Positions 1,711 to 12,056 of a stretch of 35,166 nucleotides of DNA are shown in pieces. The stretch's first letter is position 1. Every line of letters starts with the position of its first letter. Position numbers and translations under genes: made by a program. The notes beneath the pieces were generated by a model. The model did no database searches. It was not told the origin of the DNA and was given only the letters and a program-made list of their open reading frames with translations. Source of the stretch: a virus. The stretch spans positions 1-35,166 of IMG/VR virus record IMGVR_UViG_3300025069_000002, one strand, 5' to 3'.

Positions 1711-4683
1711 CTATCCTGCCATTAGGCGCTGGACCTCGGTAGGGCCAATGCCAGGGTGTTTAAGGATTGGCGTTGATTTAATCTTATTACCTTCGTCCTG
1801 TTTTACCGCATAAGAGGCTTGAAGTGTATCGATATTTTCCGGCTTGTGTGAAACATCAAGTGGGCGTTTGAATAGAATGCTAAGTGTGTTTCTCCATGCG
1901 TAAGCAGGAGGGTTCTCCATGTCAGAAACCCTCTCGGCCATTCCCGCAACAATACTTGCATATATGCTGGGGTAAACCTTTTCGAGCATATCGACCTGCA
2001 CCCCTGTTAATGTTCCATTCTCTAGATTGGTCATTGTCTCGTTTATTGGATCCTCTAGCATAGCAACACGCTGTTCTTGTTGCGCCATCTCCCTATCTGT
2101 GGGTTCTCTTTCCTTTACGCCCATTAGTATATCGTCGTTTGTACGATTATCTTTCTTAAACCCTTCCGAAGCAAATCTTACCCCACCAGCCAGTTTTGAC
2201 TTAACCGCTTCTGCTAGGTTAGGCATCTCGTAATCGATCGGTTCAGTGACTTTGTTGATTGCCCCTGATAACACTTGGGGGTCCATCAAACGCATAGCCC
2301 TTTCTTTAGCGGCGGTGTAATCCTTCGCCTTGGTTGATTCCTTCTCTGCTGCATCCTCTCCAAGCTGCTTTGCTAGTGGTGCTAAGAAAAGCTTAGTTCT
2401 ATTAGGTCGCAAGGGGATTGTTCCACCTGGGCCGCCTCTCGCCATACGGTCCATTACGCCATCGAGCCCATCGTTTAGCGCCTTCCGGCTTCTTATGACC
2501 ATACTTTCGAAAGCGGCTAGCTTCCTTGCGGTAGACGCGCTATCGGCCAGCCCCCCAAGGATTAAACCCGCAGCAGCACCAACAGTGCCAAAAGCAACAC
2601 CACCAAAAGCAGCACCACCAAAAGAACGCAAGATGGTCGCAGCAAGTTGTGGCTCATAATTAGGACCACCCACGGCACCACGAATGAAAGCGGTTTCGCG
2701 CATCTCATTAACGAGGGAATCCTTCATATCCAAGGTAGTGCCTAGAGCATGGCGCAATCGGACAGCCGCCTCTGAAGCTTCTTTAGTAGTCTCGGCCCCC
2801 GCCCAGCCATAAGCCTTATTAGCTGCCCCCGCAAAACTATCGGCGCTCTTGAAAAAGCCATCGAAAATCTCATCGGCCTCTTTCCCCCAGCTCGCCTCCA
2901 TCCCTTCACCGGTACGGCCTTCTACCTTTTTTAGCCACCTCCCAATTTTCTCGGTGCTTACTATTTCCCCCTTTGCACCAGCATACCCAAACTTTGGAAC
3001 GAATTTCTGCATACTGGTTAAAAGGGCGGTAAACTGTGGGTTAACGGTAGCTTGAATTTCGGCGGCTTTCCCCCAAATACTGGCATCCTCCAGAATCCCG
3101 TGGATATGCCTCCATGAGTTGTTGAGCGAATGCCATGTTGTTGAGGGTATTTTGCTCCGGCCTTCCCCCCAGACAAAATAAGCAGTGTGCTTTTTATAGT
3201 CGTCGAGCATTAGAAAAGCGTCTTTGGCTATCTCTTTAATGGTATCGTCTTTTTGCGTATCGAGCGCGTTCCGAAGCCACTTGTTGACGATTTCATCACG
3301 GGAGGGGGATACGCCCAGCTCCGCCATTTGCGGAGTCACCGACTCGCCCCAATTTCCCGAAAGGATATTCTCAAGCATATTGTCGGCGCTTCTAACGTTT
3401 TTAGCAACTTCGTCCCCTTTGCCTAGCCACCTAAAAGCGCCCGCCTTTTTTGTTAAATCGTCAATTGCATCAAGAAGGCCAAGATTCCCCGCTTCGCTTT
3501 TTCCTTTTAGTAGGTCAGCAACCCTATTTAGGGCAGCCGTAGGGTCAGCCTCTTCAGCAGTATCGCGAAAAATGCTTTCCCTAATCCCCTGTCTCTTGGC
3601 TAGTCCACGAGAATTTTTCGTAACCACGGCTAAGTCATCAAGGACACTATTTATGCTGGACACAATGTTGTCTTGCTTGCCCTTAAACGTCTTCTCAGCC
3701 GCGTAAGCTTCAGCGCGTTTCTTGTATGCGTAGGGTGCTACTTGCTTCTCTAAAATATCAGGGTCTTGTCCCAAAACGCCGCTGCTCCATTTTGAGAACT
3801 TTTTTTGTCCCGCTATCGAGAGGTCACTTCCGGTGGCTTTTTTATAAAGTGACGCGATACCGTTAGACATACCCTTTCCCGCCGCTACTCCAGTAACGCC
3901 GATCATGTGAATCCCGGCATTTCCAACCCCTCCGAATAAAGCGCTGTAGCCCATGTTGGCCATAAGTAATTCGCCAACATCTTCAGGGTCGCCAAGCATT
4001 GATTCTGTTAATGTTGTACCTGCGCCGAACAGGGCTCCCTCGCTCATCCCCGCCAAGCCTTTAGCACCCGTACCTTGGAGAATCCTTAACGCGGTTGCCT
4101 TATTTCCGGCCCTAGATGCAAGCGCTGCGCCGCCTAAGCCCTTTTCAAGATACCGCCCAGCTTTAAACACCCCTTTAGAGGCAATAAGAAGATCGCTAGC
4201 TTTTATGCCTTTCGCCGCTAACCGCGCCCCTGTCCCTGCTGTACTCGCACCACCAGAAAACAACGCCGGGAGAGCAGCCCCACCGACTTCAAAGCCTACG
4301 GACGTGCCGGGGAATTCCTCACGCCAAGTCTGCATTCGTTCTTTACCGAGTATTTCGCGCAAGACAATATCGGACATTCCAAGAGTGCCGCCACGCGCTA
4401 ACCCGGTTGCGGCAGCCGCGATGTAGTTCCCCCAAGAGTCCTCACCGTATTCTTCTTTGCGACCAATTCTCGCCCAGTCTTTAGTGCTCCCGTAATTCCC
4501 CCCACGGCTGAAAGCTTCTCTGGCGTTAATGCCTGGGATAAAATGGCGGCTACCATCGGGAGCAATAACGGGGATTTTCTCAGTATCCGCAAAAGCATAC
4601 TGCCGTGATAAGACTTTTTCCCTAATAAGGTTTTCAGGGATTTCCTCATAAGAGTTCGTTTTGAAATTGTAAAGTCTAGGCAT
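1711..4683 (-). CDS. Large putative internal virion / DNA ejection protein
   Basis: A 990-residue protein. The N-terminus (residues 1-60) has a short conserved-looking head (MPRLYNFKTNSYEEIPENL) and a PDG.RHFIPG element of a type seen at the start of large virion proteins in podoviruses. Two Gly/Ala-rich hydrophobic stretches (about residues 120-150 and 682-712) could insert into membrane during ejection. The intervening part is largely helical and charged. The size, position directly after the lytic transglycosylase and position before the fibre genes fit an ejection protein like T7 gp15/gp16 or P22 gp16 in role; I see no sequence similarity to those. Four bases separate its start from the transglycosylase stop. 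Confidence 0.6.
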   Translation of the reverse strand: MPRLYNFKTNSYEEIPENLIREKVLSRQYAFADTEKIPVIAPDGSRHFIPGINAREAFSRGGNYGSTKDWARIGRKEEYGEDSWGNYIAAAATGLARGGTLGMSDIVLREILGKERMQTWREEFPGTSVGFEVGGAALPALFSGGASTAGTGARLAAKGIKASDLLIASKGVFKAGRYLEKGLGGAALASRAGNKATALRILQGTGAKGLAGMSEGALFGAGTTLTESMLGDPEDVGELLMANMGYSALFGGVGNAGIHMIGVTGVAAGKGMSNGIASLYKKATGSDLSIAGQKKFSKWSSGVLGQDPDILEKQVAPYAYKKRAEAYAAEKTFKGKQDNIVSSINSVLDDLAVVTKNSRGLAKRQGIRESIFRDTAEEADPTAALNRVADLLKGKSEAGNLGLLDAIDDLTKKAGAFRWLGKGDEVAKNVRSADNMLENILSGNWGESVTPQMAELGVSPSRDEIVNKWLRNALDTQKDDTIKEIAKDAFLMLDDYKKHTAYFVWGEGRSKIPSTTWHSLNNSWRHIHGILEDASIWGKAAEIQATVNPQFTALLTSMQKFVPKFGYAGAKGEIVSTEKIGRWLKKVEGRTGEGMEASWGKEADEIFDGFFKSADSFAGAANKAYGWAGAETTKEASEAAVRLRHALGTTLDMKDSLVNEMRETAFIRGAVGGPNYEPQLAATILRSFGGAAFGGVAFGTVGAAAGLILGGLADSASTARKLAAFESMVIRSRKALNDGLDGVMDRMARGGPGGTIPLRPNRTKLFLAPLAKQLGEDAAEKESTKAKDYTAAKERAMRLMDPQVLSGAINKVTEPIDYEMPNLAEAVKSKLAGGVRFASEGFKKDNRTNDDILMGVKEREPTDREMAQQEQRVAMLEDPINETMTNLENGTLTGVQVDMLEKVYPSIYASIVAGMAERVSDMENPPAYAWRNTLSILFKRPLDVSHKPENIDTLQASYAVKQDEGNKIKSTPILKHPGIGPTEVQRLMAG

Positions 4684-4686
4684 TCA

Positions 4687-5277
4687 CTATGCTCCCACGC
4701 CTGCGCCGTACTTGCTTAGTTTACGCCCAAAGGAATCGTAAACCTCCTTTAATGACCTAGCCGTCCCAGAGCCACTATGAAAGACATTCTTGTTTGCCTT
4801 TGCCGGTTTCGGAAAAACGTCTTTTGCTTTAGCGCTTGGGTCCTTTTGCATTTCTTTGTAGAACTTTGCTGCCCCCCCTGCCCCGAAGAAGTGCGCCGCG
4901 TAGTAGTCACGCGCCCCTAGCTTTTCAGGAACCCCTGCCTTGCCTGCTAGTGCTCTAGCATTGCCGCGCAAGAATTCTACCGCTAACAAGGTTGAGGCAA
5001 CCGGGTCTGTGGCTTTTGCGTCGGAAGGGATACCCAGCCTTTTCCCATGCTTATTCATCATTTCGCTCCAGGTACTATCGATAAACTGAAACAGCCCCTT
5101 AGCCGTACCTTTCTTAGCTTTCGCGGAAGGATTAAGGCCGGATTCAACTAAACCCATCGCAACAAGTGTACCGGGGTCAATCCCTTGCTCTTTCGCAATA
5201 GCCCCAACCATAGCCGCCGTTTCCTTACGGTCACCGCCGCCTTGACCCTTAAAGGCCGCGTACTGCGAACCGGGCAA
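4687..5277 (-). CDS. SLT-type lytic transglycosylase, virion-associated
   Basis: This protein cleaves peptidoglycan glycan strands, most likely during DNA injection. The fold signature is clear: the catalytic glutamate is in ESGLNP (E45), followed by KGLFQFIDSTW (60-70), and the late Y..HFFG segment (126-132) that closes the SLT domain. The C-terminal 50 residues are basic. The listed start is a TTG at 5277 with no good ribosome site, and the frame is open upstream of it as far as the end of the preceding virion gene. A slippery A AAA AAG at 5304-5310 would bring ribosomes into this frame, so the domain may be made mainly as the C-terminus of a 732-aa fusion. In T7 the corresponding activity is also part of a larger internal virion protein. 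Confidence 0.88.
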   Translation of the reverse strand: MPGSQYAAFKGQGGGDRKETAAMVGAIAKEQGIDPGTLVAMGLVESGLNPSAKAKKGTAKGLFQFIDSTWSEMMNKHGKRLGIPSDAKATDPVASTLLAVEFLRGNARALAGKAGVPEKLGARDYYAAHFFGAGGAAKFYKEMQKDPSAKAKDVFPKPAKANKNVFHSGSGTARSLKEVYDSFGRKLSKYGAGVGA

Positions 5278-5327
5278 AGCGGTACCACCGCCCGCCCTCG
5301 TTACTTTTTTCCGGTTACGCGCTCCCC
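5271..5327 (-). promoter_or_regulatory. Putative programmed -1 ribosomal frameshift signal
   Basis: Read on the minus strand, a GGGGAG Shine-Dalgarno-like element (5322-5327) precedes a slippery A AAA AAG (5304-5310) by 11 bases. The zero-frame stop TAA (5301-5303) follows at once. A GC-rich hairpin with inner arms GCGGT/ACCGC (5287-5291 with 5279-5283) and a possible outer extension to 5271 lies about 10 bases downstream. The -1 frame is open into the lytic transglycosylase. The layout matches the E. coli dnaX frameshift site, which uses the same heptamer and a Shine-Dalgarno stimulator at a similar distance. Confidence 0.65.
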
Positions 5328-6884
5328 GCCTAATCCGCCTAACCCAGAGCTATCTTCTAGCCACCCATCCGACTTCATACTAGATTTTATACCACCAACC
5401 TCTGCTTCCCATCCCTTGACTTGAATGTCGTGGCCTTGTCCTTCGAGAAGGGTTAGGATTGCGCCCCGCCGCTGCTCCGCAGTCATTTCGTACATAGCGC
5501 GTAATTCCTGTGAAAGCCCTGCTTTCTGTGCAGGGGTCATCGCGGCATAATGCTCTGTCCCTCTTTCTAAGGAATACTCCATAATCCCCACCATTTTAGC
5601 GATCCGCATATTTTCTAAATCAGTCGCTTTAGGCGCCCATTTCCTTGCCCGATCGTACTCCTCTTTCCGCGATGTGACCCCACTAACGGCGTAAACCATA
5701 TCCGACGCCGCTTGCTCGGCCAAACGGTTGAACTCCTTCGGTTTTGTCTCGCCAGGCACAAGGACATCCAGGTAGCTCCTGACTGCGTTTATGTCCTTCG
5801 ACAGACTCCACATACGCCTCATTTTGTCCTTTAATGAACCAAAAGCGGTCATGGATTTTCTCATATCAGTAGGTATCTTGCCACCCTTCACTACGCTTAC
5901 CGCAAGCCGCTGTTTCCTATCGTCAATCTCGCTGGCTAAGTTGATAGCGCCATATTCAAGGCCATACTCTTTCCCAATCTTATTAATTTCTGCCTGGTAA
6001 GTCTGGTACGCGGCGCTATAGGCAACTTGTTCTGCTTGTTCGGCGTTACCCAACATCCGCATAGCCATCCCGTAGACGTTTCTCTTTTCGTCCACTAAGC
6101 CCTTGAGTTTTTGGTACTCCATCTTTTGGGCGTCAATATCATTTTTGATAGCGCCCTGGATAATCTGCAACGCGGTATTGGGCATTTTTTGACCAGACAG
6201 ACCTTGAGCATAAGCACCCATAGCCACACTAATAACAGCGGAGATTTTAGAGAAAGCATTAGGGAAAGCCCGTTGTGGGTTAATTTCCCAATTTGCGAGT
6301 TTTTCAGTGGCTCTGCCTAGAACCGTCTTCGCCTTATTGAGTTCCTGCTGGGCCTGTGTAAACCTTGCCTCGTCACCGCCCCTATATTGTTCGGCTATCT
6401 CACCACGCCTAGTGTCCCATGTGCTCTCGGCTTTTCGTAATAACCCATCCGGCCCCATGTACCGGTCCAGGAGTTCGCTTAGTTCGGCCCCGGAGTCTCG
6501 GCCTTCCGCTTCATTTGATGGTGGACCGGCTTGTGCGGCTTGTGCCTCTGGTGGTGCGGTTGGCGCCCCTGTCGAGGAGGCCATTGGTGCATTCCAACCA
6601 GGGTCTTCCTCCACCCAATTTGGGGATGCGGAACGCTCTAGGGAGGCAATATAATCCGGCGAAGGGCTACCGTATAGCTCACGATAAGCAGCCTCTTTGG
6701 GACCGAGTGCCTCTATAGCAGCTCGCTCGGCAGCTTCCTTCTCGGCTTCCTCGGCAGCAACCTGCTCTTTGTCCAAATCCCGAAACATTTGGATATGGCG
6801 TTGTTTTTCGTAATCAAATGCGTCTTTATCGCTCAACCTCCCCATGCGAGCGCGGTATGAAGGGTCCGATGTACCTGCAACCAT
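5301..6884 (-). CDS. Putative internal virion protein, frameshift donor
   Basis: A 527-residue, mostly helical protein. Residues 15-75 form a highly charged Glu/Ala/Lys region likely to be coiled coil, 80-125 is a Pro/Ala-rich linker, and a second long helical region covers about 140-330. There is no recognisable enzyme domain. It follows a 33-aa gene through a TAATG overlap at 6884 and ends in GKK just before TAA. The end contains the slippery site described at 5271-5327, so a share of ribosomes may extend it into the lytic transglycosylase. Position between the nozzle-like protein and the transglycosylase suggests an ejected or internal virion component; this is inference from context. Confidence 0.65.
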   Translation of the reverse strand: MVAGTSDPSYRARMGRLSDKDAFDYEKQRHIQMFRDLDKEQVAAEEAEKEAAERAAIEALGPKEAAYRELYGSPSPDYIASLERSASPNWVEEDPGWNAPMASSTGAPTAPPEAQAAQAGPPSNEAEGRDSGAELSELLDRYMGPDGLLRKAESTWDTRRGEIAEQYRGGDEARFTQAQQELNKAKTVLGRATEKLANWEINPQRAFPNAFSKISAVISVAMGAYAQGLSGQKMPNTALQIIQGAIKNDIDAQKMEYQKLKGLVDEKRNVYGMAMRMLGNAEQAEQVAYSAAYQTYQAEINKIGKEYGLEYGAINLASEIDDRKQRLAVSVVKGGKIPTDMRKSMTAFGSLKDKMRRMWSLSKDINAVRSYLDVLVPGETKPKEFNRLAEQAASDMVYAVSGVTSRKEEYDRARKWAPKATDLENMRIAKMVGIMEYSLERGTEHYAAMTPAQKAGLSQELRAMYEMTAEQRRGAILTLLEGQGHDIQVKGWEAEVGGIKSSMKSDGWLEDSSGLGGLGGERVTGKK

Positions 6885-6998: not shown

Positions 6999-7565
6999 TC
7001 ATGCAAAGCCAAGTTTCGTGGCCATCGCAGTGGCCTGACCCAGTGTGCCTAGTATACTGGAGCCGGGGTCTGCTTCTCTCATAGCCCTCCGGTATTCTGC
7101 AACCGCTTGCTCTAGTACCCTGTCAAACAGAACGTCATCCGCAGCAAGCAATCCAGCGGCGTTTGCCTCCTGTTCGGTGTATCCCTGCTTTGCTGCCTCT
7201 ACTATCATAGCGACAGATGCCTCTGACTCAACATAAGACTGTCCAGCCGCCTCGGTTCCCATGCGAAGGCCACGCCCGCCCTGATTTAGACCACGCGCCA
7301 TAGCTATTTGTTTTGCCGCCGCCGACCTTTGGAAAGCCCTGGACTCCTCCGCCGCTGGGCCCCCTGTCTCCCTTAGTTCCCGCAGTTCTGCGAGGTCCTG
7401 CAAATACTTCCTACGCCCGATATTCTGCTCTGGACTGTAGGGTATTTGTGGGTCGTCACCGGGGGTACTGGCTGAAACCTCGATAACGCCACCAGGCCCC
7501 CATCGTGTCGTTTTCCCTCTGCCGGTGTGCTTTCTAAATATCTCTAACGGATTCAGGGCGGTCAT
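6999..7565 (-). CDS. Small putative virion protein
   Basis: A 188-residue protein with a good ribosome site (TAGGAG before ATG). The N-terminal third is polar and Gly/Pro-containing; residues 60-175 are Ala/Glu/Gln-rich and predicted helical, with a Gly-rich GLNQGGRGLRMG break near residue 95. No known domain is recognised. Composition and place, between another Ala-rich small protein and the 527-aa protein, suggest one of the small internal or ejection proteins that podoviruses encode beside their tail genes. Function is inferred only from neighbourhood. Confidence 0.6.
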   Translation of the reverse strand: MTALNPLEIFRKHTGRGKTTRWGPGGVIEVSASTPGDDPQIPYSPEQNIGRRKYLQDLAELRELRETGGPAAEESRAFQRSAAAKQIAMARGLNQGGRGLRMGTEAAGQSYVESEASVAMIVEAAKQGYTEQEANAAGLLAADDVLFDRVLEQAVAEYRRAMREADPGSSILGTLGQATAMATKLGFA

Positions 7566-7576
7566 TTATTTGTCTC

Positions 7577-8161
7577 CTATAGCCTTATTTCCGACGGTGC
7601 ATCTTCAGGATCGCTCTTTAGTATCGTTGTCATAAGCGCCGCTACATCACCAAGACCTTTCCAGGTACTAGCCTGACCCTTTAGTGAGATCCCTAGCTCG
7701 TCGGCTCGCCGCTTTAGCCTCTCCATAAGGGCAGATTGTGCCTGTCCTCGTTCCAGTTGTGCCCAGGCGTTAGCTGCATTTAAGCCGACATTGAAACGCT
7801 GCCTAGCTTCGCCAACCATTTTTCCGCCCTGTTGTTGCAGGATTGTACCCCCCAGTGTTGCGCCTTTTTGTGAGGCAGCAAATTGTGCTTCAGGAGGTGC
7901 CCCGCTCATTGCCGCAAACTGCCTTTTAGCCGCGTCATCGCCCATCTTTTTAGCGAGCATACCTGAAACCAACGGACGCCCACGTAAACCACGGGCAGAT
8001 TCCACAGTTCTGCCCATTTGCGCCTGTGTTTCTGGGTCAAGTCGCTCAAGGTTAGCAAGCTCGTTACCCTCCGATTCCCACCCAGGTCGCCAAAGAGGGC
8101 GCCCAAATGCGTCAACACCGCCAACAGCAACACCGCCAACATCAACTCCGAATACTTTCAC
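7577..8161 (-). CDS. Small putative virion protein
   Basis: A 194-residue protein starting at a GTG (8161) eight to nine bases after TAGGAG. The N-terminus is Gly/Val-rich and short; residues 50-180 are Ala/Gln/Arg-rich and mostly helical, resembling the composition of podovirus internal virion proteins. No catalytic motif or membrane segment is visible. It lies 16 bases after the 1292-aa tail gene and 11 bases before the next small virion gene, so the three are probably co-translated. I do not recognise a family. Confidence 0.6.
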   Translation of the reverse strand: MKVFGVDVGGVAVGGVDAFGRPLWRPGWESEGNELANLERLDPETQAQMGRTVESARGLRGRPLVSGMLAKKMGDDAAKRQFAAMSGAPPEAQFAASQKGATLGGTILQQQGGKMVGEARQRFNVGLNAANAWAQLERGQAQSALMERLKRRADELGISLKGQASTWKGLGDVAALMTTILKSDPEDAPSEIRL

Positions 8162-8177
8162 TAGTTCACTCCTATGC

Positions 8178-11100
8178 TTACGTTACAGTAAGCCGGTCAG
8201 CCGATGGTAGTTTAAAACTCGTTTCTGGTCGTTTAAGCCCGACAAGCATAGATATACTTTGGATAGCCATGTAACCACCGCCCGCTGCTGGCTCTGATTC
8301 AGACAGCGTAAATTTAAAAGATTTAACCTTTTGCTTGGGAAGCTTCAGCTCTAACTGAAACTTAGACGTTCCTGGCCCGGTAGAAGGGTAAGCAATCTGA
8401 GTCCCAGAAGTGCTGTAGTCAGTGTAGATAACAAAGTGCGGTAATGATGTGGTGTTAAAATCCCCAAGCATTAACAACCGGTAGACACGTCCAACTTGTT
8501 GGAGTTGCCCGATATTAATCCAGCCGGAAGTTAGTTGAAGCCCATAGGGTCTATTATCATCACTATCACCGACACCAGATGATGAATCAATGTTATCAAA
8601 ATACGTTTCATCGGCCTGCTGCTTATACAGGAGCCCCCTAGTATTTAATCTGTAATGAATGTTATCGACAACTACCGAGCCTGCATTTGCGCCTGTATCG
8701 TTATGCAATTCCCATGTAGACCATTGATCAAATAAGAAATTGTAGACAGCTATCTTCTGGCCACCGGCAACAGTAAATCGAACTTCATGCTCTTTACCGA
8801 ACACATGGGCATCAATAGCATAGTTGGTTCCCGTTATCTGATCTTCTATCTTGGCCCCTTGGTGGGCGACCTGCATGTTACGCCCACAGAGCATTAACCC
8901 TTGTGAGGTCTGAAAGAATACACCCAAGGGGGTTTCTACACGACAAGTACCATCGATAGCGCCTTGCCCTGGAGCAAACACCCGTAAAGGAGAGAACCCA
9001 GGACCTTCACCGGATGGGCTTGGCCCTTCTCCAGACATATAGTACCCATTACGAGCACCAAGAATAAGCAAGTGTTCCAAATTAGGACACAGAGCCCTTA
9101 TCTTTTCCGAACGGTTATCTACGGCACGAACAAAGGAGTCACTAAAGCCCGCTTCGGTATTTTCTGCGAATCTATTGGAGAACCACACCGTATTTTCTGT
9201 TGTAGCAAGGATTACTCGGTTTTTCCATACGGCGATATCATACAGGGAAGGGGGGGCTACGTGAGAAAAGTTCCCACCATTAGTATAAAGAGAATCGTTA
9301 TCCTCTAGTTCACTATCTGGGAGGGTATCTGTTATCTGCTGAAAAACGCCAGAGTAGTCCATCAAGGCTTCAGCGCACCTATGGTAAACGCTGCCTTCGT
9401 CCATTGTTCTATAGAGGACTATTTTCACTTCTGATCGCGCACCCCAATTTACAGCGGTATAGCCTTGCGGGTTCGCCAAGGAAGAAGCATCTCTTTTGTA
9501 GGTTAGCTGTAGGGTATATATCTGTAGAACCACATCTTTTGCGGCAATGGTTCCGGTATTCCATTCGACTGAAGGGGCAGACGATTGCACTTTCCCTGCG
9601 TGGTCTATCCATTCATAGATAGCTTTATAGTTAAACGTGCCGGTTAATGCGCTTCCTGTCGAAACATCACCAGAATGTATTTCGGGGTGGTGAAAAAAGT
9701 TCGCCTCTTTAAAATAGTCTCCTGAGTAATCCCAAAGAATACCGCTAGCTATTTTCAACGCCCCATCTGCTTGAACACTAGGCAAGTACCGAACGGGGGA
9801 GAAGTCCATAATCCCAATAGCTGCATCCATTGCAGTTATGTCATTACCATCACTGTTTGTATTAACCCCGTTGTATCTAGAAGAGCCGAAACGAAACTTT
9901 GTCGCCACATACTTTTCAGGAGAAGTATCGTTATCATTATCCGAAAAAGCAGGAGACACAATAATGTTGGTATCATCCCCAAGTGCTGCAACCCGCCTAG
10001 TCTCCCCAGATACGGTTATAAGGTCACCAACAGAAAGTTCTGTAAGGAATTTAGTACCTTCGCCAGTAACCACGCCAGCCGAAGCATATTCGCCAGCTCC
10101 AGGGTCAATACTGCCGGTAAGTACCTCGCTAGAGCTATCAGCAACAACGCGAGAAACGCCATACATGCAATGGACGCGATTGAAGTCCATGAATTGGGTA
10201 AACCTAAAATCAATTTCCTGTGTCCATGGTCCTGCACTTAGAGCTGTTTTGGCCACTACTTGTCCTTGGTGATTCATAATCATGCCAACGGACGTGTTAA
10301 ATACAGAGTGTGCCGTGTCAGCATCATAAGCCACCTGACTAGGGCGACTTGCGTGGCCAACGCCAAGATAAAGGTCGTTCTTGTATGCAAAACAATCAGA
10401 CGTTACGGTAATGCCGTAAAGGTCGAGGCTTTTATCTGTAAGCAAATCACTATTTAGACTGTAGTCGTAAGCGTTTACTAAAAAACTAGGCGACCTTGCC
10501 CGTACGTTCGTCTTGTTCGCGACCATAGTCAGAAAGAATCGAACCTTATTCGTTTCATTCTTACCGGCAGTTCCATTGATTAAGATATGACCAGGAAATT
10601 CCGTAGAAACAAACGCTGTAGGTACGGCATCTATATTTACTACCTGTATAGCGGAACCTGAAGGGAGGGCGAGGTCCTTATCGTAGACCCTTAGCTCGAT
10701 GCCATCGGGTTCGTCAGCGGTGCCACTGGCCGTAGTCTTGTCTCCTGACTTCGTATAGCCAATTGCTATATAATCCCCTGTAATACTATCAGCAGGCGTA
10801 ACAACCTTAAGCATTAAGCCGCCAACAATCTCAAACGTGTTTTTCGACGTAGTGTAGATCGAGGTTGGCCATGGTATTCGGAACACCAAATCGGTATAAG
10901 GAAAATGAACCTCTGTATTTATTGATACAGGGCTTGGGCTAGCATCTTCTTCAGCAAGAAACCCACTTGTCGTTGTGTAGTAGGAAAGGCGTAAGCGTTG
11001 GTCGCCGGAAGTGTGTCGCCTAAAGACAGCAATACCCTCCGTTATTGTGGCATTATTAACAGCCTCGATACACCAATCAGGGTTAGTTATATCTACCTCA

Positions 11101-12056
11101 AATAATACGCCATAATCAGTATTTAAAAGCAAGTCAGGGTTTAATGACGAACCTATCGAACCCGCCCCTTCGCCAGTATCCACCTTCGCATACTTAATTC
11201 TACCAGAACCTACATGAACCAGTATGAACACATAGCGACTATTAGCAGCCACTTGAGCGCGTGGGATATTGTATAGACCATTGTTCGTACTAAAGGAGTT
11301 GATTAACGTTCGCCCTATGACTTTAGTTCGAGTTATTTTGTCTATAACTTTTGCATAGGTACGCCAAACGACACCGAGGGTAACAGAGGTTACTCCTGTC
11401 GTGCTAGAACCTGGCGGGGTATCATCGTAATCAATAACTAAAGTGTCGCTGTCCGTTATTGATTTAATAAGATAGAGGTCATCCTTCCAGGTGGCCGCAA
11501 AATCGATTGCAACCTTACCCCCTACAGAGAGGTTATGCGCCGCGCCAAAGTTAATTGTGGCAAGAGTCCCACCAGCACCAGCACATGAAGTTACGGTGTT
11601 TATGATGTTTACTGATTCGGTAGGGTCAACTTCAGACCAGACATGAACCTCAAAATTATTAGCCACGCCTATTTGAGCAGAGGTCTGCACTAGATTCGTC
11701 CCTGCCTCCACCCGTTGAGTTTCCAGGGTGCAGCCGACTATGGTGCCCTTATTTACCCATGCGTCGGAGGAAGATGTTTTCGTGTAACCATATCGACCGT
11801 CGAAAGCCAGAATCTCGTCATTATATGCTGCTGTCGCTTTGCCTGTGTCGAGAGATACCGCTGAATCACCAGGGACGATAGCCGGGATTCTGCTGGAGAG
11901 GCAATGGAAACCTTTTCGCTTCTTAGCTTCGCCACTCTTTATAAATTGAACATTCTTAGCTTCGGTCAGTTCGCCAACAGGCAAAACGCGGTCAGATATT
12001 TTCTCGTTCGCGCCTTTGACGATAGGTAAGCCAATTATTTTCTTCTCTAAGGCCAT
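8178..12056 (-). CDS. Large tail nozzle/hub-like protein
   Basis: A 1292-residue beta-rich protein. The N-terminus contains the pattern LP..ELTEAKNVQFIKSGEAKKRKGF (about residues 25-50), which I associate with large podovirus tail proteins that begin with a short strand-rich head and then form a beta-propeller-like body, in the position of T7 gp12. Long stretches of alternating polar and hydrophobic residues with many Gly and Asp fit this. The region WKNRVILATTENTVWFSNRF (about 970-990) resembles a propeller blade. Its start overlaps the previous stop (TAATG at 12056). Assignment to the distal tail tube is by size, composition and gene order; no enzyme motif is seen. Confidence 0.7.
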   Translation of the reverse strand: MALEKKIIGLPIVKGANEKISDRVLPVGELTEAKNVQFIKSGEAKKRKGFHCLSSRIPAIVPGDSAVSLDTGKATAAYNDEILAFDGRYGYTKTSSSDAWVNKGTIVGCTLETQRVEAGTNLVQTSAQIGVANNFEVHVWSEVDPTESVNIINTVTSCAGAGGTLATINFGAAHNLSVGGKVAIDFAATWKDDLYLIKSITDSDTLVIDYDDTPPGSSTTGVTSVTLGVVWRTYAKVIDKITRTKVIGRTLINSFSTNNGLYNIPRAQVAANSRYVFILVHVGSGRIKYAKVDTGEGAGSIGSSLNPDLLLNTDYGVLFEVDITNPDWCIEAVNNATITEGIAVFRRHTSGDQRLRLSYYTTTSGFLAEEDASPSPVSINTEVHFPYTDLVFRIPWPTSIYTTSKNTFEIVGGLMLKVVTPADSITGDYIAIGYTKSGDKTTASGTADEPDGIELRVYDKDLALPSGSAIQVVNIDAVPTAFVSTEFPGHILINGTAGKNETNKVRFFLTMVANKTNVRARSPSFLVNAYDYSLNSDLLTDKSLDLYGITVTSDCFAYKNDLYLGVGHASRPSQVAYDADTAHSVFNTSVGMIMNHQGQVVAKTALSAGPWTQEIDFRFTQFMDFNRVHCMYGVSRVVADSSSEVLTGSIDPGAGEYASAGVVTGEGTKFLTELSVGDLITVSGETRRVAALGDDTNIIVSPAFSDNDNDTSPEKYVATKFRFGSSRYNGVNTNSDGNDITAMDAAIGIMDFSPVRYLPSVQADGALKIASGILWDYSGDYFKEANFFHHPEIHSGDVSTGSALTGTFNYKAIYEWIDHAGKVQSSAPSVEWNTGTIAAKDVVLQIYTLQLTYKRDASSLANPQGYTAVNWGARSEVKIVLYRTMDEGSVYHRCAEALMDYSGVFQQITDTLPDSELEDNDSLYTNGGNFSHVAPPSLYDIAVWKNRVILATTENTVWFSNRFAENTEAGFSDSFVRAVDNRSEKIRALCPNLEHLLILGARNGYYMSGEGPSPSGEGPGFSPLRVFAPGQGAIDGTCRVETPLGVFFQTSQGLMLCGRNMQVAHQGAKIEDQITGTNYAIDAHVFGKEHEVRFTVAGGQKIAVYNFLFDQWSTWELHNDTGANAGSVVVDNIHYRLNTRGLLYKQQADETYFDNIDSSSGVGDSDDNRPYGLQLTSGWINIGQLQQVGRVYRLLMLGDFNTTSLPHFVIYTDYSTSGTQIAYPSTGPGTSKFQLELKLPKQKVKSFKFTLSESEPAAGGGYMAIQSISMLVGLKRPETSFKLPSADRLTVT

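Follow-up and report, generated by a model that had tools for sequence, protein, structure and literature searches.

A putative dnaX-type -1 frameshift at a phage gene junction that appears to dock exchangeable cell-wall hydrolases

The 35,166-bp stretch of DNA that we analysed (a virus record, called the window below) carries on its minus strand a gene junction with the hallmarks of a dnaX-type programmed -1 frameshift, which in our judgement very probably docks exchangeable cell-wall hydrolases onto the protein encoded upstream. This upstream 0-frame protein (5301..6884; an ORF with relatives) has 527 aa, is mostly helical and stands in ejection-protein position. Its gene ends GGA AAA AAG TAA, with the slippery heptamer A_AAA_AAG in the 0 frame (5310-5304) and the stop codon TAA (5301..5303) immediately 3' of it. 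GGGGAG (5327-5322), an SD-like 5' stimulator with an anti-SD duplex of -7.3 kcal/mol, stands 11 nt before the heptamer. No stop interrupts the -1 frame between a point 39 nt before the heptamer and the stop at 4687; from the heptamer onward (4687..5310) this frame reads through a linker, KKVTRAGG..., into an SLT lytic transglycosylase. The predicted fusion has 732 aa (2199 nt read), 205 of them gained beyond the shared lysines. In the heptamer, GGGGAG, the open -1 frame and the size of the fusion the window bears out an earlier note on this DNA, which had also placed a GC-rich hairpin about 10 nt downstream; the 26-nt hairpin is present (5297-5272), but its distance from the heptamer is 6 nt.

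In the mechanism that we propose, ribosomes would reach A_AAA_AAG with GGGGAG paired to the 16S anti-SD behind them and a stem-loop ahead. One outcome would be termination at the next codon, releasing the 527-aa protein, and the other a one-base backward slip, yielding the 732-aa protein with a C-terminal lytic transglycosylase. Two forms of one probably internal or ejection protein would result, with the peptidoglycan-cutting domain on only one of them. We infer from this arrangement slippage in the host and its efficiency, and also that virions contain the fusion and that it acts on the wall as the DNA enters. The shiftiness of such a heptamer depends on the lysine tRNAs of the host. In addition, the E. 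coli dnaX signal yields about 50% (PMC5009743), and for these two reasons we drop the "fixed low ratio" of the earlier note, which is unsupported.

In the window genome alone, the evidence for frameshifting is moderate and suggestive. Three random codons would read nnA AAA AAG with a probability of 2.2e-4, and the probability that any of the 22 window genes ends in the heptamer plus a stop is 0.042 (codon redraws with the proteins fixed). A_AAA_AAG is not avoided in the window, because it occurs in frame seven times as compared with 2.7 expected, three of the seven being in the 990-aa gene (1711-4683), and it may be only mildly slippery in the host of this phage. These in-frame heptamers point either to a host ribosome that does not slip very readily at them or to tolerance of short -1 products. 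The stability of the downstream hairpin puts it within the best four of 11,713 27-nt windows on the same strand; the 65-nt stretch that contains it was not special as compared with dinucleotide shuffles (z -0.8), and its weight in the window genome alone is therefore modest.

We scanned IMG/VR for relatives with three queries: the 527-aa protein, a profile of its core, and its neighbour of 1292 aa. In one of them (L003/L001; contig 3300025131_000529), the upstream protein is 67% identical in the best segment and the transglycosylase 95% identical, and GGGGAG, the 11-nt spacer, the heptamer, the TAA and the hairpin are all identical or nearly so to those of the window (anti-SD duplex -7.3 kcal/mol). 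The stem-loop begins 6 nt past the heptamer in both, with about 5-8 nt expected for a dnaX-type signal. Differences between the window and L003 over the entire -1 frame are distributed 8/4/29 by codon position, as expected for a coding -1 frame. In the linker stretch, compared among the window, L003 and a third phage, L004 (described below), four of the five differing sites are third positions of this frame (binomial p about 0.045, in a small sample). At the DNA level, the two are 73-96% identical across window positions 4261-6561, which cover the transglycosylase together with the latter half of the 527-aa gene and the first part of the 990-aa gene, and about 45-60% identical in the flanks; either recent cassette exchange or strong constraint would account for the high identity.

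In another relative (L004; contig 3300025141_000970), the core of the upstream protein is 57% identical and its C-terminal part is divergent. The gene nevertheless also ends GGA AAA AAG TAA, with GGAAAAAAGTAAC kept and GGAG positioned 10 nt before the heptamer (anti-SD duplex -5.9). Its 3' element is different and much stronger, a long stem-loop from the stop onward (-33.9 kcal/mol; z -6.33, no shuffle equalled it). No other 71-nt window in 16 kb is as stable, and the outermost pairs of this stem-loop extend into the stop codon. The -1 frame of L004 reads KKVTGAGGVIAGRDTSGRMFSDP... and encodes a VanY/M15 carboxypeptidase domain (Pfam 4.3e-11, 43.2 bits vs a 25 cut-off) containing the metal-site motifs STHMHGTGYD and WWHWEY. 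The corresponding domain in the window is an SLT domain (Pfam 6.4e-11, 42.3 bits vs a 21.3 cut-off) that aligns with phiKZ gp144, with the ES-motif glutamate conserved, and a search for similarity between the VanY and SLT domains found none. The junction would thus serve as a dock, the same heptamer leading into a VanY-type peptidase in L004. The three junctions (window, L003 and L004) are homologous rather than independent; that one slip site serves two unrelated hydrolases argues for selection for the frameshift itself.

The signal was absent from relatives that lack the enzyme. In two records of the same phage group (L022 and L024), the upstream gene ends in RIKE-stop with no heptamer and no hydrolase, and the next gene immediately adjoins it; in the more distant L008, the upstream gene is present with neither heptamer nor enzyme at that place. 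When SLT and VanY profiles (the two families scanned) were run over 24 records, the only matches in the group were the enzymes behind the heptamer. Homologous loci had been expected to keep the heptamer and the open -1 frame, as L003 and L004 do, and looking for stops between the frames in the relatives did not refute the frameshift reading. Among cultured phages (50,697 records), tblastn with the 527-aa, portal-like and 990-aa proteins yielded no relative, nor did core-profile scans of genome contigs. Separately, the gene preceding the 559-aa homologue in L004 (L004:4232-5368) has a weak match, just below the Pfam cut-off, to Peptidase_S74, the endosialidase chaperone, which is a self-cleaving domain typical of tail spikes.

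The window is of a short-tailed phage type, with terminase, portal-like, SU10-type capsid and adaptor genes, and also encodes RecE/RecT and Prim-Pol. By comparison with T7, its minus-strand genes of 1292, 194 and 188 aa (6999..12056; placed by synteny only), followed by those of 527 aa and 990 aa (1711..4683), reproduce the gene order 12-13-14-15-16. Gene order therefore fits the claim of the earlier note that the upstream protein is a virion protein that is ejected, but no similarity to T7 gp14 or gp15 accompanies it: the hhalign probability was under 1% against both, and no PDB match was obtained for the 527-aa protein. The 990-aa protein, in gp16 position, had no match in Pfam or PHROG and no similarity to gp16 was found. 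AlphaFold models of both proteins were poor (mean pLDDT 45 for the 527-aa protein, modelled as helical, and 47.6 for the 990-aa protein). On gene order only, the 527-aa protein would be gp15-like by position, with a presumed ejection role, and the 990-aa protein gp16-like by position, without the hydrolase domain of gp16. The hydrolase can be on the gp15 homologue in phages K1E and K1-5, according to a review of ejection proteins (PMC8954989), which fits the gp15-like placing of the 527-aa protein.

Junctions of the same design occur outside this phage group. Running the pattern GGGGAG N9-12 AAAAAAGTAA on IMG/VR returned 99 sites. At seven of them a 0-frame ORF of 100 aa or more comes to its end, and in four of the seven (4/7) there is a -1 ORF that is 50 codons or longer. 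The sites in L075 and L129 lie just after tail genes, where a tail-assembly-chaperone frameshift is expected, and serve as positional positive controls only. Both have the SD-like element, heptamer and TAA as in the window (in L075 on the minus strand, before a tape-measure-like gene), and are likely tail-assembly-chaperone frameshift sites.

In some cyanophages, an ORF of the C39-peptidase family is followed in the -1 frame by a GH24 lysozyme. This arrangement was observed in the cultured phage S-PM2 (L162:135-1318 = NC_006820 115534-116717) and in two cyanophage contigs (L115:2742-3976 and L135:13435-14549). The C39-family ORF ends A_AAA_AAG_TAA in L115 and L135, the -1 frame matching GH24 phage lysozyme with Pfam values of 4.4e-22 and 3.4e-15, respectively; in S-PM2 the annotated gene S-PM2p156 ends with the heptamer plus TAA, and the -1 frame is the lysozyme. 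The first usual start codon of the -1 frame occurs only at +87 or +90 in S-PM2 and L135, whereas L115 has a GTG at +27. The S-PM2 lysin is truncated as annotated, beginning well inside its domain. S-PM2 and L135 have a common stem about 5-60 nt past the heptamer (AGCTCTACT/AGTAGAGCT vs AGTTCTACT/AGTAGAACT), in which the change from C-G to T-A is compensatory. Elsewhere the C39 and lysozyme domains are found in one frame (ACG-2014f), in one frame in reversed order (S-CREM1), or as ATGA-overlapping genes (S-SRM01). In Synechococcus phage S-CBP4 (KC310804 / HM559717), the C39-family match is in two pieces, which may be another frame change. We lean, by a little, towards viewing dnaX-type signals as a recurrent, independently evolved dock that would place interchangeable hydrolases (SLT, VanY, GH24) on part of the copies of their partner, both on an ejection-type gene of a podovirus and in cyanomyoviruses, S-PM2 among them.

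Alternatively, the transglycosylase might be a separate protein begun at the TTG at 5277 (or a later ATG) and coupled after termination at the TAA, with no fusion made, a reading that we consider improbable. This TTG is the first ATG, GTG or TTG of the -1 frame in the window; it lies at +33 in both the window and L003, and is preceded by SD-like sequences (GGCGGTGG/GGCGGTAG, duplex -6.6). In L004 an ATG at +54, the first usual start of its -1 frame, is available for a separate enzyme, and the second enzyme of S-SRM01 provides a precedent for an overlapping gene. However, the candidate starts vary among relatives and sit in the stem, including the L004 ATG, whose SD is weak (-2.9). As the earlier note had judged, the window TTG is a poor start, its SD-like GGCGGTGG being imperfect and the codon itself (5277-5275) lying in the 3' arm of the hairpin. 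The L003 -1 frame has one GTG 63 nt before the heptamer, without an SD. A separate start would also fail to account for the retention of the heptamer with the TAA next to it, of the SD-like element upstream and of the open -1 linker, of which KKVT(R/G)AGG precedes these downstream start codons in the window, L003 and L004 (3/3), and for the absence of the heptamer from relatives without the enzyme.

Fusion from edited mRNAs, through RNA polymerase slippage on the A run, is very unlikely because the run has only six A. Longer A/T runs are known to allow transcriptional slippage as an alternative to frameshifting, but the reviewed cases have about nine (PMC5009743), and such slippage requires neither the SD-like element nor the stem-loop that the junction carries. 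Still less credible is an accidental heptamer, or an assembly indel that split one gene into two frames. The probability of about 0.04 that some window gene ends in heptamer plus stop, and the seven in-frame heptamers, would be compatible with accident, but three separate contigs share the junction, and the enzymes behind it are of two kinds. Conservation of the junction in the relatives makes a chance heptamer very unlikely, and its presence in three contigs led us to reject assembly error.

Programmed frameshifting, the reading that we prefer, has several partial parallels. The E. coli dnaX signal (PMC5009743) shares A_AAA_AAG, an SD-like element upstream and a stem-loop downstream, but its shifted product is the shorter one, whereas in the window termination in the 0 frame is immediate and it is slipping that would give the longer product; some bacterial dnaX genes likewise have a 0-frame stop right after the site and make the longer product by shifting (PMC5009743). 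In T3/T7 gp10, phage A2, Listeria phages, and the SPP1 and 936 major tail proteins (PMC5009743, PMC6669499), a slip at the end of the structural gene provides some subunits with a further C-terminal domain; the known extensions are Ig-like or carbohydrate-binding, whereas that of the window is a peptidoglycan hydrolase and varies between relatives. A hydrolase is tied to an internal ejection protein in T7 gp16 and in the gp15-type proteins of K1E and K1-5, and hydrolase domains move between gp15 and gp16 homologues (PMC8954989), but no frameshift is described there, and the 527-aa protein resembles gp15 in gene order only. The cyanophage junctions share with the window the A_AAA_AAG_TAA that ends the 0-frame ORF, a cell-wall enzyme in the -1 frame and a downstream stem-loop. 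Unlike in the window, both of their parts look like endolysin enzymes rather than a virion protein, and the phages and domains are unrelated. Finally, retroviral Gag-Pol (PMC5009743) also pairs a structural ORF with an enzyme encoded after it in the -1 frame, which a slip near the end gives access to, as an analogy only, since virus, enzyme and ribosome are all different.

Frameshift-extended phage structural proteins and the mobility of hydrolases among ejection proteins are each already known (PMC5009743, PMC6669499, PMC8954989). The open-access literature that we searched yielded no description of a virion protein joined to a peptidoglycan hydrolase by frameshifting, or of unrelated hydrolases exchanged behind one conserved slip site. 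If our reading is true, the junction would be a phage counterpart of Gag-Pol, in which a structural protein and an enzyme are tied by recoding, and recoding would set the number of peptidoglycan-cutting heads per ejection machine. Gene callers miss or truncate such enzymes, as with the S-PM2 lysin, and other phage hydrolases may therefore be mis-annotated in the same way. S-PM2 offers a cultured system in which the docking idea is testable.
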